A stretch of DNA of 30,465 bases from a virus. The notes under the pieces are model-generated. The model saw only the letters and a program-made list of their open reading frames with translations, was not told the DNA's origin and searched no databases. Positions 5,802 through 15,704 of the stretch are shown piece after piece. The position numbers were made by a program, and so were the translations under genes. The stretch spans positions 1 to 30,465 of the IMG/VR virus record IMGVR_UViG_3300000153_000003; one strand, given 5' to 3'. Position 1 is the stretch's first letter. Each line of letters starts with the position of its first letter.

Positions 5802-5981
5802 ATGAAAAAAGAAAAAGTATCTTTTACTATTGATGAAGATTTAATAGCTTGGTTTAGGTTGCACATAAAGGACGAACATACTACTATGTCAGCCCTTGTT
5901 AATGCTTATATTTTAAATTTGAAACGGGATAGAGAAGGTCATTCTTCTCCAAGGAATATTTTACTGTCGTCTAAATTATAA
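5802..5981 (+). CDS. Small ribbon-helix-helix (Arc/MetJ/CopG-like) regulator
   Basis: This 59-codon ORF is the only credible plus-strand gene. It starts at ATG after GGAGG about eight bases upstream and ends with TAA at 5981. The product has a short basic strand (KKEKVSFTIDEDL) followed by two helices (IAWFRLHIKDEH, then MSALVNAYILNLKR), the order expected for a ribbon-helix-helix DNA-binding domain; the ~14 C-terminal residues look disordered. Such proteins bind DNA as dimers at short inverted or direct repeats. It is divergent from the fibre gene, with 93 bases between them that hold an inverted repeat and two GGATAT steps, and it ends one base before the stop of the Mre11-Rad50 gene. A likely job is control of its own promoter and perhaps the fibre promoter; this is inference. 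Confidence 0.75.
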   Translation: MKKEKVSFTIDEDLIAWFRLHIKDEHTTMSALVNAYILNLKRDREGHSSPRNILLSSKL

Positions 5982-5996
5982 CTATTTAAATTTAGA
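5970..5996. terminator. Inverted repeat at a convergent gene end
   Basis: TCTAAATT (5970-5977) and AATTTAGA (5989-5996) form an 8-bp stem with an 11-base loop, extendable outward by G-T, C-G and further wobble pairs. It covers both stop codons of the convergent ribbon-helix-helix and Mre11-Rad50 genes. It could act as a bidirectional terminator, but the stem is AT-rich and no clean T tract follows on either strand. Confidence 0.35.
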
Positions 5997-8900
5997 TGGT
6001 AATTTCAACTGACTAAATCCATCTATTTTAGATATTTCTAATAAACTGTCTACGGCATCTCTCATTGATTCAATATGAGAAACAATAAATACAAATTGAA
6101 ATTGAGTTTTAAGATATTGAAATAGCATATAAACAGAATTCAAATTATCCGAATCCATATTTCCAAACCCTTCATCTATTGCTAAAAAATTGGCTCGTGG
6201 TAAATTACACACGTTAATCAATCCAACACGTATTGCTAATGAACTAACAAATCGTTCCATTCCACTACTTAATTCAAGTGGCCAAACATTATCTTCATCA
6301 TATGTAATATATGTATTTATATTCTTTCCATCCATTTCTAATACAATACCAAATTCTACCATCTGAGCAAGAATATCATTAACCTCACCTTCAATTGCAG
6401 GGAGTGCCTTCTCTATAAGTTCATATGGAATACCATCACGTTTTACCGCGTCCATGTAAAAATCGTAAGCTTCATATTTATTTTCTAAATCTTCCACTCT
6501 ATTCATTGTTTCAATGATAGACGTTTTCTTTGTTTGATTTATCTTTATTTCACCATGAATAGTTTGTATTTTTTTATCTATGGTTTCTATTTGATAATCA
6601 AAATCTTCAACTGAATTTTTTAAATTTTCAATTTCTATTTCTGTCTTATTATTATAGATTATATCATTTTCATTTTCATGGTATTTTTCAATCTTATTAT
6701 TAGTATTTGACATTTGATGAAGTACATTTATCTTTTTTTCTTTTAAAATAACTTCTTCTGATTCTAATTTATTTTGCGTTATTTCAATTTGTTTTAATGA
6801 TTCAATCACTTCATCATAATTTACTTTGTCATCGTGAATGTTTTCAATCTTTTTTAATTTAACATCAATATCATCTAACTTAGAAATATATTCACTTGCT
6901 AACTTCTTGTCACCATTTAATCTTTCTTTGGTTTCCATTGCATCTAACGTGAATGGATTGTTCATACAATACTCACAATTCTCATCCCATCCTAAATTAC
7001 CAAGTTTTTCAATTTTGTCTAATTTATTACGAACTTCAATTTTTAGCTTGTCAATTTCTATCTGAATTTTCTGTCGTTTATTTTCCAAATTAATAAAATC
7101 GTTATACTTTTGATTCACATTTGAATCAGTATATGATTTCGCTCTATTCGTTAATTCAGTATTATTTGATTGTAAAACAATCATTTCTGATTTAACTGAG
7201 CCAAGTCTCGTATCTATTACATCAAGTTGAGTATTAAATCCATCTAACTCCACATTCAACTTATCTATATCTGAAATGGATGCATCGATAGGTCTTAACT
7301 TTTTAGTCAATCCTAATATTTGCTCACTTAATTCTGTTCGTCTTGTTGTAAGAGTTTTCTTTTGACTTTTTAAATCCCTACGAACTTCATTATATTGAGT
7401 ATTGTCTTTTTCTATATCAGCCAATTCCACGTCATAATTAGTTTTATTAAAATCTCGTAATACTGCTGATATATCTGACATTTCATCGTTTGCTAAAGTA
7501 TAAAGACTATCGAATGCACTTAATCCCATGAACTGGGCAAGTAGATCTTTCCGTTCTTTTTGAGTTTTATCTATAAATACAGTTGAATTATTTTGTAGAG
7601 AAAGAGATGTTATAATAAAATCATCGTATGTTCCAATAATTCTATATATGTTATTATTTGTGGTTCTACGTTGATCTCCATTTAAGGAAATTTTATCTCC
7701 ACTATCATCAATTGTCCAGAAATCAACATCAACTTTTACATGCCCATTTCGTTGTCGTTTTGCGTTACGTTCAATAAAATATTCAGTTTCGTTTATTTCA
7801 AAATTAACTTTACATTTAAAATAATTTCTTTTGTTATTTAATACTCTATCCGCTTTATATGCTCTATCTGACGTATCGAATAAACAAAAAGAAAGAGAAT
7901 CCAAAAGAGCTGACTTTCCTGATGCGTTTGGTGCGAATAATCCAATAATACCATTTAACTTAGTAAAATCAACTATATTATCTTCACCATAACTAAACAT
8001 ATTGGAAAATTCAAATTTCTTTAATTTCCAATTTATATTACGAGAAACATCTTCATCTGGAAGTTGATTATTTAAATCATCATTTATTCCTTTTATTTCT
8101 AATAATATTTCATCACTTACTGTGTGGTTTCTTTTTAAATAATCTCTAATTAATTTAAACTGGTAATCTGGATTTGTAACGTCTCCAACATCAACGGTTC
8201 TATCCCCACGAACTCTTTCTGTCAATCTGTCAGTCCTATTTACAACTATCTCCTTTATACCGTATTTCGTCTGTATTACAGTCAAGGCCTTCTTTAGTTG
8301 AACAGAGTCAGTGTTAGATACCCTTACTCTTAACCTGGCCTTTTGAGGCATATCGGGTACATCAGGAACTATACCATCATCAATATCCATAGTATAATAT
8401 CCGTAATCATTTTGTATTTTTATATATTCAGATTTTCTATTTGGAACATCCCATAATAGATAACCGTGATCTAATCCTTCCCCATGGTTTTGTTGTACGA
8501 GGCTACCACAATAACTTATCGTCTCTTCCTTATTTAGATGCTGTCGAAGGTGAATATCTCCCAGTAATCCCAAATCGTAACCTTTGAATTTGTTAATTTT
8601 AACATCGGATGGCAATCTAAATCCTAAATCTGTTGAACTTTTATCAACCGTTCCATGAAATAATACTATTTTAGTATCACCTTCTACATCTGTAGCTTTG
8701 ATAAAATTTTTCGATTCATCCCATACATCCCACACCACAAACCTAACATCTGCGAATTTATATATTCCACTATCTTTTAGATAATGTAAGTTTGGATGAT
8801 TGAGGTTATCTACTATTGGTGATAAACAATCCATCCTTGATAAATTATTTAAATTACAATCATGATTTCCCGCAATGATAATTGTAGGACAAATGTCAGA

Positions 8901-9146
8901 TAAATTCTTAAATAACCTTGATAATTGGTCAATCAACTCAGGTGACATTTCAGTTTTTGAATGTGCTATATCACCACCGATATAAGCTATTGAATTACCA
9001 TCATTGTGTTTATTTATTGATTCATATAACCGCTCAAACACTTCTTCATATTCACGATGGCGTTTCAAATTTCTGATTTGTATATCGGATATATGAAATA
9101 TTTTTTTTAGTTTACGAAATGGAACTTTTACAACTTGCTCTTTCAA
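5982..9146 (-). CDS. Mre11-Rad50 (SbcD-SbcC / gp47-gp46) fusion protein
   Basis: One 1054-residue chain joins the two subunits of the Mre11-Rad50 nuclease/ATPase, which T4 makes as separate proteins gp47 and gp46. Residues ~15-340 are a calcineurin-like phosphoesterase: SDIQ (D21), GGDIAH (D59, H62), GNHD (93-96), FHG (H164) and GDIHLR (D197, H199). Residues ~373-1054 are Rad50-like: Walker A APNASGKS (405-412), long Lys/Glu-rich coiled coil, zinc hook CEYC (724-727), signature ELSSGME (~958-964), Walker B FLAIDEGFG (987-995) and an H-loop histidine (~1024). The usual DxH of phosphoesterase motif I reads D-I-Q here. Expected role: DNA end processing for recombination-dependent replication and repair. 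The start is TTG; AAGGAG lies 11 bases upstream, overlapping the previous gene's end, and no ATG precedes the conserved region. Confidence 0.95.
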   Translation of the reverse strand: MKEQVVKVPFRKLKKIFHISDIQIRNLKRHREYEEVFERLYESINKHNDGNSIAYIGGDIAHSKTEMSPELIDQLSRLFKNLSDICPTIIIAGNHDCNLNNLSRMDCLSPIVDNLNHPNLHYLKDSGIYKFADVRFVVWDVWDESKNFIKATDVEGDTKIVLFHGTVDKSSTDLGFRLPSDVKINKFKGYDLGLLGDIHLRQHLNKEETISYCGSLVQQNHGEGLDHGYLLWDVPNRKSEYIKIQNDYGYYTMDIDDGIVPDVPDMPQKARLRVRVSNTDSVQLKKALTVIQTKYGIKEIVVNRTDRLTERVRGDRTVDVGDVTNPDYQFKLIRDYLKRNHTVSDEILLEIKGINDDLNNQLPDEDVSRNINWKLKKFEFSNMFSYGEDNIVDFTKLNGIIGLFAPNASGKSALLDSLSFCLFDTSDRAYKADRVLNNKRNYFKCKVNFEINETEYFIERNAKRQRNGHVKVDVDFWTIDDSGDKISLNGDQRRTTNNNIYRIIGTYDDFIITSLSLQNNSTVFIDKTQKERKDLLAQFMGLSAFDSLYTLANDEMSDISAVLRDFNKTNYDVELADIEKDNTQYNEVRRDLKSQKKTLTTRRTELSEQILGLTKKLRPIDASISDIDKLNVELDGFNTQLDVIDTRLGSVKSEMIVLQSNNTELTNRAKSYTDSNVNQKYNDFINLENKRQKIQIEIDKLKIEVRNKLDKIEKLGNLGWDENCEYCMNNPFTLDAMETKERLNGDKKLASEYISKLDDIDVKLKKIENIHDDKVNYDEVIESLKQIEITQNKLESEEVILKEKKINVLHQMSNTNNKIEKYHENENDIIYNNKTEIEIENLKNSVEDFDYQIETIDKKIQTIHGEIKINQTKKTSIIETMNRVEDLENKYEAYDFYMDAVKRDGIPYELIEKALPAIEGEVNDILAQMVEFGIVLEMDGKNINTYITYDEDNVWPLELSSGMERFVSSLAIRVGLINVCNLPRANFLAIDEGFGNMDSDNLNSVYMLFQYLKTQFQFVFIVSHIESMRDAVDSLLEISKIDGFSQLKLPSKFK

Positions 9147-9151
9147 ACTAT

Positions 9152-9358
9152 TTATTTCTCCTTGAGAATTTTTCTTGCAACTTTTATTTTATTTGCAGGA
9201 ACACTAATATCCCATGCAAATACTTTACTTTTCTTAAAATATTCACATACGATTTTTCCGTTTGCTTCTTTGACTATTTTGTTCACTTTACGTTTTTTCT
9301 CCGAATGAATTCTGTATTCATCATCGTAAAGTTTCCAAACGTCTTGGTTTTTTGCCAT
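9152..9358 (-). CDS. Small basic protein of unknown function
   Basis: A 68-residue, lysine-rich protein (begins MAKNQDVWKLYDDEY) without transmembrane segments or cysteine motifs. Its ATG lies inside the 3' end of the primase gene (38-base overlap), and its TAA lies five bases before the TTG start of the Mre11-Rad50 fusion; its last codons encode KEK and supply the AAGGAG of that next gene. I do not recognise the family. The tight packing in both directions argues that it is real and translated from the same transcript as the replication genes. Confidence 0.65.
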   Translation of the reverse strand: MAKNQDVWKLYDDEYRIHSEKKRKVNKIVKEANGKIVCEYFKKSKVFAWDISVPANKIKVARKILKEK

Positions 9359-10289
9359 TTAATTTATATCGCATCAAATCTGAAAACTTCATTTTTTTGG
9401 TAGATTTTAGTATATCTACCATTTTTGTAAATCCCAAATCCGATGGATCCTTTTGTGAAAGTTCTACAAAATATACATCTATACCGTTTCTCATAAACTC
9501 ATCAACCATTTTTAATGAATCTTTAATAGCGTCAGTGTCTAATGATATATATATCGTTTTTACTTTTTTTTCAATAATTTTTCTTTTTAATTTTGATAGG
9601 ATAGTTTTACCGAATAGAGGAATGGCATTCCTTTTGATTGCTATCGCGTCAAATACTCCCTCAACTAAACATATTGGCTCATCCCAGTTAATAAGTAAAT
9701 CAAATCCAATAATATTCTTTGGAGACGGCGAATTTCTATATTTCATTTTACTATCAAATATATCCCTACCCACAAAAAAATTTAATTGGCTGTTATTATC
9801 ATATGACGGGATAATAACTCTATTAGTATACAATCCACTTGTGCAATATCCTATATTATACTTTAATAAATCTTCTTGTGTAATACCACGCCTGAACATA
9901 TATTTTTTAGCATTTTCAAATTCAGGACCTCTACCACCATTCCATAATGGTTGATATTCTTTTGGTAACTCTACAGTTTGAACTTGTGTATTTTTTACAC
10001 TAGTTCGATTATACGAAGTTTCACCAACGATATCACGAAGCTCACTCCATTGTTCTTTTGTTGCATTTAACTTTTTGAATAACTGGAATAACGTTCTTCC
10101 TTTAAAATCACACACCCAGCAATGATAAAAACCAAATTGTTTAGAATTTCGATTTAAATTTACCTGTAATTTTTTCTTATAGTGATTACACTTTGGACAA
10201 TAAAATTGCAATTCACCAGATTTTAATTTCTGATATTTTCCTATAAGTCGTTCAACTAAATAATATAATTTATCCAATAACGAACTCAC
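9321..10289 (-). CDS. DnaG-type toprim DNA primase (T4 gp61-like role)
   Basis: A 322-residue protein with the architecture of a phage primase. Residues 31-60 hold a zinc ribbon, CPKC (31-34) and HCWVC (C57, C60). A toprim catalytic domain follows, with the glutamate motif LVEGVFDA (E210-G211) and SLDTDA (D251, D253), and DPSD at 281-284. It would make RNA primers for lagging-strand synthesis with a replicative helicase encoded elsewhere. The frame starts with GTG at 10289, just after an in-frame TAA, with no clear Shine-Dalgarno; it overlaps the end of the upstream nuclease by 20 bases, so translational coupling is likely. The C-terminal tail is basic (GKKPRRLETLR). The assignment as primase is strong; the exact subfamily is inferred. 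Confidence 0.9.
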   Translation of the reverse strand: MSSLLDKLYYLVERLIGKYQKLKSGELQFYCPKCNHYKKKLQVNLNRNSKQFGFYHCWVCDFKGRTLFQLFKKLNATKEQWSELRDIVGETSYNRTSVKNTQVQTVELPKEYQPLWNGGRGPEFENAKKYMFRRGITQEDLLKYNIGYCTSGLYTNRVIIPSYDNNSQLNFFVGRDIFDSKMKYRNSPSPKNIIGFDLLINWDEPICLVEGVFDAIAIKRNAIPLFGKTILSKLKRKIIEKKVKTIYISLDTDAIKDSLKMVDEFMRNGIDVYFVELSQKDPSDLGFTKMVDILKSTKKMKFSDLMRYKLNGKKPRRLETLR

Positions 10290-10540
10290 TTTGTTTTATT
10301 CTATAAAAATCACATTTTAAAGCTTTAATTATTTCAGATTGTCTATGTTTATCTTTATCCATTAATTCACCATTTTCATAATGACTATCTTCATCCCACT
10401 CAATTACTATATTTAAGTTTGGGCTTATGGTGTGATATGAATGGGGACCAATACATATACTCATTTTGTTTCTTTAACTTCCTACCCTTTGAACCTATAA
10501 CTCTGTCTAATAAATAAACTATTTTATTTTGATTTGTCAT
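10270..10540 (-). CDS. Vsr/DUF559-like (EDxHD) nuclease interrupted by a +1 frameshift
   Basis: Two overlapping frames seem to make one 89-residue gene. Frame one starts at ATG 10540, overlapping the preceding stop by 17 bases, and encodes 46 residues including YLLDRVIGSKGRKL and SPFISHHKPKL before TGA (10400-10402). Frame two, open from 10473 to the stop at 10270, encodes NLNIVIEWDEDSHY, then DKDKHRQSEIIKALKCDFYRI. That is the core of Vsr/DUF559-like PD-(D/E)XK nucleases: an E-x-D strand, a histidine, D/R helix residues and a final strand. Removing one base of CCC (10421-10423) joins them as HHKPNLNIVIEWDED. The joined gene fits exactly between the resolvase and primase genes. It may be programmed frameshifting, a recent disabling mutation, or a sequencing indel. 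A shorter product from ATG 10464 has no visible Shine-Dalgarno. Confidence 0.65.
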
Positions 10541-10892
10541 GTATTAACTTTATAAATTTATCCAATTCTATAACTGCGTATGTTTTACTTCTATTTCTTT
10601 TGAATACCAGAACAGGGTCTACATTATCAGGACAATTTGCTTCTGCTTGTTCTAATGAACTCCATATTGAAATGGACTGCTGATTTTTCATTTCCCATGA
10701 GTATGGGATTAATTTACGACATAATGGGGAGACTTGAAGATCCTCACCACCAGCTCCCATTGAAGTTGATCTAATATCATCGGGCTCTAATTCATCTTTG
10801 AATGCTTCTAATAGTAAATCCCTAACTGTTTGCTGTAATTTACGACCTTTAGCTTTACCACTCTGGACTGATATTTTTCGTTTTTTAGTCAT
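10524..10892 (-). CDS. Holliday-junction-resolvase-like PD-(D/E)XK nuclease
   Basis: A 122-residue protein with a resolvase-type nuclease core. The N-terminus is basic (TKKRKISVQSGKAKGRKLQ), typical of small DNA-binding nucleases. The catalytic pattern is GGEDL (48-52, E50 and D51) followed by YSWEMKN (E67, K69), that is D-x15-E-x-K, and then a helix with Gln (LEQAEAN) and a final strand VLVFKRNR. Similar small proteins in phages are annotated as Holliday junction resolvases and would debranch replicative DNA before packaging, a job done in T4 by the unrelated endonuclease VII. ATG start with AAGG seven bases upstream. It sits in the presumed operon ahead of the second nuclease, primase and Mre11-Rad50 genes. 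No substrate can be read from sequence. Confidence 0.75.
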   Translation of the reverse strand: MTKKRKISVQSGKAKGRKLQQTVRDLLLEAFKDELEPDDIRSTSMGAGGEDLQVSPLCRKLIPYSWEMKNQQSISIWSSLEQAEANCPDNVDPVLVFKRNRSKTYAVIELDKFIKLIHDKSK

Positions 10893-10938: not shown

Positions 10939-11322
10939 TTATATTTTATTTTTCCACACCCTAATAAATTCTTTCTGTGCCCAATTCTCCGCCTTTTCTT
11001 CATATCTATTATCGTCATGGTGATGACCACCTTTTTCTATAGCATAAGCAGTTTCCATTTCATAATCCTTTTTATATTTAGACTTACCCATCTTTTTGGC
11101 ATCTTTAGCATGGTCGATTTCATGTAAAACTGTAATATAAAAATCTTTAACGGATGAATAAGATGATCTTATATTGATAGTGTCTCTATCCACATCGTAG
11201 TCAGCTTTATCTGGACCATTGGTGATTTTTACTTTTGATTTTAACTTATATTGTTTTACGAGCTGTTCCGCAAATTCTATATAATCAACTCGTTCTAATA
11301 ATAGATGTTTTAATTTAATCAT
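10939..11322 (-). CDS. HExxH zinc metallopeptidase-like protein
   Basis: A 127-residue protein with a zinc-binding HExxH helix, VLHEIDHAKDA (about residues 65-75), and a downstream helix, NRYEEKAENWAQKEF (about 105-119), whose glutamates could supply the third ligand as in gluzincin-type peptidases, including the ImmA/IrrE-like group. The region between is rich in His and Asp (GGHHHDDN). It has no signal peptide or membrane segment, so it should act in the cytoplasm or the virion. The start ATG lies eight bases inside the end of the MscS-like gene, so the two are probably translated together. The N-terminus MIKLKHLLLER is of a type common on small phage proteins. Substrate unknown; maturation of a phage protein or cleavage of a host regulator are both possible. 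Confidence 0.7.
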   Translation of the reverse strand: MIKLKHLLLERVDYIEFAEQLVKQYKLKSKVKITNGPDKADYDVDRDTINIRSSYSSVKDFYITVLHEIDHAKDAKKMGKSKYKKDYEMETAYAIEKGGHHHDDNRYEEKAENWAQKEFIRVWKNKI

Positions 11323-11683
11323 TCGTTTTTTTTCTTAATGTATCTGCTGGTGTCGCATCCTTTGATAAATTATGTCCTATACGGTGTGGTAATATTTTTT
11401 CTAATGTTAAATTTTTTAATTTTTCATTTGGTACAATCATTTTAGTTCCCCTGTCAGTCATATAAAAAACAGTTTTACTTATTCCTACTCTAACTATACG
11501 AGCCTCTCTACCACTAATATAAATCACATCATCATTATTAAAATCATTACCAATAAAAATCATTATAGCCTCTAAAGCGTTTGTTATAGATTCTTTAAAT
11601 AAAAATCCCGCTACTATCATTAGCACCATCCACCCATAATGTCCTAACACATCTTCTACTAACAGTTTTATTTCTTGATCCAC
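11315..11683 (-). CDS. Mini-MscS: mechanosensitive-channel-like membrane protein
   Basis: A 122-residue protein resembling the pore helix plus beta domain of MscS channels. A hydrophobic segment (residues ~16-29, YGWMVLMIVAGFLF) leads into an amphipathic helix (SITNALEAIMIFIGNDF), matching the TM3a/TM3b order. Then comes the MscS beta-domain signature: NNDDVIYISGREARIV, a strand ending in T-x-x-x-M-T-D-R-G, and IVPNEKL (compare D-G-x-x-I-x-I-P-N in the family). The first two membrane helices and the C-terminal alpha/beta cage are missing; the tail is short and polar. It starts at GTG (11683), seven bases after GGAG; a nearby ATG in another frame stops at once. It is the first gene of the presumed recombination/replication operon. 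A role in membrane permeability, lysis timing or osmotic protection is inference. Confidence 0.75.
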   Translation of the reverse strand: MDQEIKLLVEDVLGHYGWMVLMIVAGFLFKESITNALEAIMIFIGNDFNNDDVIYISGREARIVRVGISKTVFYMTDRGTKMIVPNEKLKNLTLEKILPHRIGHNLSKDATPADTLRKKTND

Positions 11684-15257: not shown

Positions 15258-15704
15258 TTATTTAAGTTTAAATCCACTAGAATCACCAACTCCACCTGTG
15301 TTTCCACCAACTCCACCTGTGTTTCCACCAACTCCACCTGTGTTTCCACCAACTCCACCTGTGTTTCCACCAACTCCACCTGTGTTTCCACCAACTCCAC
15401 CTGTGTTTCCACCAACTCCACCTGTGTTTCCACCAACTCCACCTGTGTTTCCACCAACTCCACCTGTGTTTCCACCAGATGCAACTACTATTGGAACCGA
15501 TTTAATATCACTTCCATTATCATTACTTACAGCTAATGAAACAGAATATACTCCACCGTTTATAAAAGTATGAGTAGGATTTTTATCCGTGGATGAATTA
15601 CCATCTCCAAAATCCCAAAAATATGTTAACCCATCACCGATGGAAGTATCATTAAAATTTATTGTTAACGGTGCTGTTCCCTGTTGTATTGACTGTACTG
15701 ACAT
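15258..15704 (-). CDS. PKD-domain protein with a GGNTGGV repeat tail
   Basis: A 148-residue protein. Residues ~9-75 form a PKD (polycystic kidney disease-type, Ig-like) domain: APLTINFNDTS, then the hallmark WDFGDG (30-35), NPTHTF and GVYSVSLAVSNDNGS. Residues 77-139 are nine perfect copies of GGNTGGV, followed by GDSSGFKLK. PKD domains are beta sandwiches used for protein or carbohydrate contact on cell surfaces and in some phage virion proteins; the Gly-rich tail would be a flexible or polyglycine-type extended segment. No signal peptide, so surface exposure would come from being part of the virion. It lies between the two paralogue arrays; decoration or fibre-tip function is inference. ATG start after an AGAGGAG Shine-Dalgarno. 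Confidence 0.85.
   Translation of the reverse strand: MSVQSIQQGTAPLTINFNDTSIGDGLTYFWDFGDGNSSTDKNPTHTFINGGVYSVSLAVSNDNGSDIKSVPIVVASGGNTGGVGGNTGGVGGNTGGVGGNTGGVGGNTGGVGGNTGGVGGNTGGVGGNTGGVGGNTGGVGDSSGFKLK
15289..15477 (-). repeat. Nine perfect 21-bp tandem repeats
   Basis: Nine head-to-tail copies of a 21-bp unit (plus strand ACTCCACCTGTGTTTCCACCA) with no mismatch among them span 189 bases inside the PKD-protein gene. The unit is a whole number of codons (seven, GGNTGGV), so copy-number change keeps the frame. Perfect identity at synonymous positions points to recent expansion or ongoing homogenisation by slippage or recombination. Read lengths shorter than the array could also mis-assemble its copy number. 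Confidence 0.95.

Follow-up and report, generated by a model that had tools for sequence, protein, structure and literature searches.

The window examined here is the whole stretch of viral DNA analysed, 30,465 bases that make up the whole of an IMG/VR record classed as a linear fragment, and its positions 5982 to 9146 encode, on the minus strand, a single chain in which an Mre11 (SbcD) nuclease is followed by a Rad50 (SbcC) ATPase. The initial annotation, which gave no strand, had read one 1054-codon frame holding a complete Mre11 and a complete Rad50; this reading is confirmed, and all the motifs that it named are present in the translated minus-strand open reading frame (ORF), which measures 1068 aa from stop to stop. 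The gene and its parts are as follows.

5982..9146, minus strand: fused Mre11 (SbcD)-Rad50 (SbcC) coding sequence, 1054 aa, TTG start
9158..9163, minus strand: Shine-Dalgarno-like AAGGAG, 11 nt ahead of the fusion-gene TTG
8367..9113, minus strand: nuclease (calcineurin-like phosphoesterase) domain, residues 12-260, by Pfam Metallophos and an Mre11/SbcD fold match
9078..9086, minus strand: motif I, D21-I-Q23 (read H18-I-S-D21-I-Q23), Gln replacing the canonical ligand His (P. furiosus Mre11 His10)
8961..8975, minus strand: motif II, G58-D59-I-A-H62 (GDxxH, as in Mimivirus R555)
8859..8870, minus strand: motif III, G93-N94-H95-D96, from the sequence
8655..8657, minus strand: motif IV, His164 (F-H-G), from the sequence
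8550..8561, minus strand: motif V, G196-D197-I-H199, Asp replacing the canonical ligand His (P. furiosus Mre11 His206)
8052..8366, minus strand: Mre11 capping domain and C-terminal region, residues 261-365, by profile alignment, model and fold match
8064..8171, minus strand: helix-loop-helix, residues 326-361, equivalent of the Rad50-binding domain of Mre11
8034..8063, minus strand: linker of about 10 residues (362-371; class range about 9-12) from the Mre11 helix-loop-helix to the first Rad50 strand, by secondary structure
5985..8033, minus strand: Rad50/SbcC part, residues 372-1054, two ATPase lobes and a short coiled coil
7911..7934, minus strand: Walker A, APNASGKS, residues 405-412
6966..6977, minus strand: CxxC zinc-hook apex, CEYC, residues 724-727
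6252..6272, minus strand: ABC signature, LSSGMER, residues 959-965
6153..6188, minus strand: Walker B and D-loop, FLAIDEGFGNMD (including IDEGFGNMD), residues 987-998

Profile searches (Pfam, PHROGs, NCBIfam, PDB) recognised both halves, with Pfam matches for the nuclease (Metallophos at residues 15-172, 9e-8) and for the ATPase (AAA_23 at residues 381-617, 9e-12), and the Rad50 half also matches phrog_77 (1.7e-44). A profile built from 43 relatives matches T. maritima Mre11, in both its nuclease and Rad50-binding parts, as well as E. coli SbcC. Mre11/SbcD motifs II to IV (GD, GNH[DE], H) are all present and the Rad50/SbcC H-loop VSH is found in addition to the elements listed above, while the canonical motif I DxH is absent, D21-I-Q23 standing in its place, as is the canonical motif V GHxH, the fusions having GDIH as a family-wide trait. 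An AlphaFold model made for residues 1-372 (pLDDT 86) gives Z scores of 22-24 against SbcD/Mre11 structures; it superposes on 7dog_B (Z 24.2, rmsd 3.4, 274 residues) as an Mre11 fold with its cap domain, and its alignment to T. maritima Mre11 3tho_B covers residues 14-361, the helix-loop-helix included. The full-length model (pLDDT 80) retrieves Mre11-Rad50, SbcCD and SMC heads, and its pTM of 0.48 means that the position of one half relative to the other in the monomer is poorly determined. The gene encodes a genuine one-chain Mre11-Rad50, and both halves are complete in motifs and fold.

Helices 326-340 and 345-361 are present in both models and align to 3tho_B through residue 361, and the first Rad50 strand begins at residue 372 in the secondary structure of the full-length model; since the Rad50-binding helices directly precede the short linker to that strand, the fusion joins two ends that are already close together in the two-gene complex, as has been argued for such fusions by Yoshida et al. 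(PMC3175470). A junction-internal Shine-Dalgarno sequence and start that would yield free Rad50 was found in none of the 43 members inspected, which leaves plausible the earlier suggestion that fusion fixes a 1:1 stoichiometry. The companion suggestion, that it might change how the ATPase gates the nuclease, need not hold, as the two-gene Mre11:Rad50 complex is already 2:2.

The possibility that the single frame is an assembly or sequencing artefact, with a missed stop and start between two genes or a miscalled Gln codon, is so slight that it can practically be set aside. Nothing was found in its favour; the fused frame with its DIQ motif occurs in 81 distinct nuclease segments and recurs, at 56-100% identity, in contigs of many further datasets, no junction ribosome-binding site exists in any of the 43 members, and a sequencing error, hidden stop-start or frameshift is ruled out because more than 120 relatives on other contigs have the same fusion as an open frame. 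When viral contigs were scanned with the nuclease half, at least 599 stretches matched, 596 of which were confirmed, and among the 216 fetched relatives with a readable nuclease part and 3' end all were fused except one (L158), a Staphylococcus phage SbcD that had been included as a control. In eight related contigs of 101-194 kb, which are fragments like the window, Metallophos and SbcC each match the fusion and nothing else, and no second Mre11 or Rad50 gene was found there. The cellular matches come from metagenome-assembled bins, mostly on short contigs, and are probably mis-binned phage; no close plasmid relative was found. Fusions of this kind are abundant in aquatic phages, and both the one-chain architecture and the motif V Asp have been known since 2011 (PMC3175470). 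The initial annotation had presented the fusion as unusual, a view that the collection of homologues it called for contradicts: in a large viral family that is already known, being fused is the normal condition (PMC3175470), and largely the same applies to the motif I Gln, which is fixed in the window's clade.

Four relatives (L014, 2959-7181; L132, 3974-7250; L129, 3304-6544; L314, 9392-10579) have the gene split again, the nuclease frame ending 20-45 residues past GDIH, so that the break falls inside the nuclease domain and not at the Mre11/Rad50 junction. The N-terminal pieces are 224-250 aa long and carry an added tail, which in three of the loci follows a common pattern like VDExxLxxYLxxGWKL, and in the three loci that cover the downstream part a second ORF of ~860 aa comprises the remaining nuclease domain, the cap and Rad50. 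The two pieces overlap in L132 and L129; an ORF with a TnsA-like endonuclease domain lies between them in L014, and a zinc-ribbon ORF follows the N-terminal piece in L314. A group I intron was considered for L014, and no Rfam match was obtained. In T4-type phages, genes such as nrdA, topoisomerase and gene 43 are split by homing endonucleases (PMC2988022). By analogy, the re-split loci resemble those cases, and the TnsA-like and zinc-ribbon ORFs suggest fission by a mobile endonuclease.

The gene belongs to a conserved neighbourhood, the members of which are given below.

9321..10289, minus strand: DnaG-like primase (zinc finger and Toprim; phrog_47, 6e-40), upstream neighbour of the fusion
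9152..9358, minus strand: small ORF (68 aa) that separates primase and fusion and is also present in close relatives
10524..10892, minus strand: RusA-like Holliday-junction resolvase (PHROG name; phrog_244, 5e-17), adjoining the primase in close relatives

All 30 of the loci compared, down to ~30% identity, have the primase followed by the fusion, and the primase, fusion and resolvase form a replication-recombination cassette that sits among tail and baseplate genes. Several small genes nearby were also recorded. Adjoining the resolvase, and conserved in close relatives, is a small zincin-like metallopeptidase domain (10939-11322, minus strand; MPTase-PolyVal, 4e-7). In a 122-aa protein (11315-11683, minus strand), an MscS-type mechanosensitive channel beta-domain (Pfam PF00924, 2.4e-5) is combined with a single probable membrane helix; a similar sequence is present twice in the relative L005. 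A 59-aa ORF of ribbon-helix-helix-like appearance (5802-5981, plus strand), whose stop abuts that of the fusion gene, converges on it, whereas all other coding in the window is on the minus strand. Farther away, a 148-aa protein (15258-15704, minus strand) consists of a PKD domain and then a perfect 21-bp repeat encoding GGNTGGV units (array 15284-15477, 9.2 copies, 100% identical); because the repeat identity is perfect, the array suggests a recent expansion or active copy-number change in what is probably a virion protein.

Metal 1 of P. furiosus Mre11 is bound by Asp8, His10, Asp49 and His208, and metal 2 by Asp49, Asn84, His173 and His206. Read from aligned sequence, site 1 of the fusion protein would be made up of D21, Q23, D59 and H199, with one His changed to Gln, and site 2 of D59, N94, H164 and D197, with one His changed to Asp, the motif V assignment being based on a profile alignment of GDIH with GHIH (T. 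maritima) and GHLH (S. aureus) (3qg5, 7dog). The Gln at a metal-ligand position of motif I, pointed out in the initial annotation, is real, but GDIH had there been taken as normal, although cellular Mre11 and SbcD have GHxH; the motif V ligand is substituted as well, and it is not one metal ligand that differs but two, one in each site. The residues D21, D59, N94, H95, H164, D197 and H199 are invariant among 43 diverse members.

After deduplication, and with profiles cleaned of neighbouring tail-fibre ORFs of >1000 aa, the nuclease segments comprise 81 of Q type and 78 of H type, all with Asp in motif V, and only Q or H occurs at position 23; the count without deduplication, 201 Q and 122 H loci, includes repeats, as loci were not merged by contig. 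Motif strings read directly at the aligned positions show Gln in 87 loci of the window's clade. The Q forms group as one clade of the nuclease tree (SH-aLRT 98), DxQ being fixed in the window's clade and DxH found in its sister clades, so the idea that the Gln is a private oddity of this contig was rejected. The motif V Asp is the older trait, almost universal in the fusion family, and the Gln is a later change. One relative, L005 (6001-9174), has an H-form nuclease half, which the nuclease tree places as sister to the Q clade, while the full-length tree nests the protein within that clade, a conflict which suggests either exchange of the nuclease half between phages or a reversal.

Gln in motif I is also found in a second fusion lineage, that of Tenacibaculum, Chryseobacterium and Sphingomonas jumbo phages. 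A wider tree that includes three unfused phage outgroups calls for two changes of the motif V state (a single gain of Asp, and its loss in PAU) and for three of the Gln, the latter all inside the fused set; these counts are provisional in view of long branches and few outgroups. A single origin of all Gln is unsupported by the three changes, fewer gains combined with losses being possible, and viral fusions probably acquired Gln on more than one occasion. It is absent from the unfused comparison proteins, of which the tree holds only three from phages. No report of a motif I Gln was found in the open-licence papers searched, and this lineage-fixed feature is apparently undescribed so far.

With a probability of about 0.82, the protein is a one-chain phage SbcDC (Mre11-Rad50) that is functional, with a remodelled metal centre and a role like that of gp46/gp47. 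Two copies of the fusion would dimerise into the usual M2R2 head, in which ATP binding by the Rad50 lobes would close access to the nuclease, and hydrolysis together with DNA-end binding would open it; the nuclease would then trim or nick ends to give 3' single strands, and these would feed phage recombination-dependent replication and repair, as with T4 gp46/gp47. Such an end-resection role would be, by analogy, the most economical one for a gene of this cassette. That the protein is a working enzyme of recombination-dependent replication is argued from its low dN/dS, the intactness of its remaining ligands and its synteny with the primase and resolvase. Computed against four relatives, dN/dS amounts to 0.05-0.09 for the nuclease domain, 0.05-0.12 for the ATPase lobes and 0.20-0.28 for the coil, values that are rough, since dS approaches saturation in some of the comparisons and could not be computed in one; all domains of the fusion are under purifying selection.

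Replacement of a metal ligand can abolish nuclease activity in characterised Mre11 proteins, and conserved presence is hence no proof that the nuclease is active. The protein could be mainly a Rad50-type DNA-end tether or ATPase on which the nuclease, its catalysis lost or strongly reduced, persists as a vestigial scaffold, in keeping with two metal-ligand positions unlike those of cellular Mre11 and with general chemistry, by which Gln replaces His poorly in binding metal. This is nevertheless improbable, as the nuclease domain is constrained as much as the ATPase lobes or more, the nuclease of the Q clade is better conserved than the remaining protein (e.g., 74% vs 55% identity to L003), and the other ligands are invariant across the 43 members; moreover, decay would scatter over many residues, yet position 23 is only ever Q or H. 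We found no report on the biochemistry of any viral Mre11-Rad50 fusion. We expect an active enzyme, not a dead one, that is probably Mn2+-dependent and may have an altered metal preference.

A refinement of the functional SbcDC reading, not exclusive of it, is that the Gln/Asp centre shifts metal preference or substrate, which we put forward tentatively and consider rather doubtful. With oxygen donors replacing nitrogen donors at both sites, the centre could come to prefer Mg2+ or an altered Mn2+ site, and the balance of exo- and endonuclease activity could shift. The Gln probably arose at least twice in the sampled viral fusions and not at all in the unfused comparison proteins, but only three of these in the tree are from phages. 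In the window's clade Q23 is accompanied by S to D/E at position 140 and F/Y to W at position 142, which may represent local adjustment; positions 56, 75, 114, 166, 179 and 180 are likewise associated with Q, however, and shared ancestry alone could explain the covariation. Strict coupling of the Gln to the motif V Asp is rejected by PAU gp288, which combines Gln with the canonical GHIH. That the two-metal centre was rebuilt alongside the one-chain architecture, first with Asp and then repeatedly with Gln, altering metal use or the choice between exo- and endonuclease action, is similarly conjectural and, in our estimate, rather unlikely.

Nothing established is overturned by these results, the fusion and the motif V Asp having been reported previously, and the new part is modest. 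Nevertheless, a one-chain Mre11-Rad50 of ~120 kDa with a short coil is convenient for structural and gating studies, and the natural Q/H variation at a metal ligand, L005 included, offers a ready-made test of the role of that ligand.

Yoshida, Claverie and Ogata described in 2011 Mre11/Rad50 fusions in Mimivirus (R555) and Bacillus phage 0305phi8-36, with further ones in marine metagenomes (GOS; mostly phage-like scaffolds, some with primases), plasmids and scattered cells (PMC3175470). Like these, the window protein has Mre11 at the N-terminus, Rad50 at the C-terminus and extra linker residues, and it shares with the viral fusions an aquatic distribution and, with the GOS scaffolds, primases nearby. 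Mimivirus R555 has GDxxH as motif II, has Asp in motif V where P. furiosus has His206, and keeps DxH in motif I (PMC3175470); the window protein agrees with it in the first two, whereas R555 is longer (1351 aa against 1054 aa) and has DxH where the phage protein has DxQ. Among named phages, Microcystis phage Mel-JY01 encodes WWT39521 ("AAA domain containing protein", 1066 aa; 40% identity over 98%), which is likewise fused, with GDIH and the same order of primase, small ORF and fusion, but has DVH in motif I. The jumbo-phage proteins, annotated "metallo-phosphoesterase" or "DNA repair", from Tenacibaculum (pT24/PTm1), Chryseobacterium (MA9V-1) and Sphingomonas (PAU gp288) are fused and have DxQ in motif I in four of four cases, with GDIH in motif V in three and GHIH in PAU gp288; they are only ~25-27% identical to the window protein, longer (~1300 aa) and set in another gene neighbourhood. 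T4 gp47/gp46, E. coli SbcD/SbcC and Mre11/Rad50 have the same domain content, fold and order of parts as the window protein but, unlike it, are encoded by two genes and carry DxH and GHxH.
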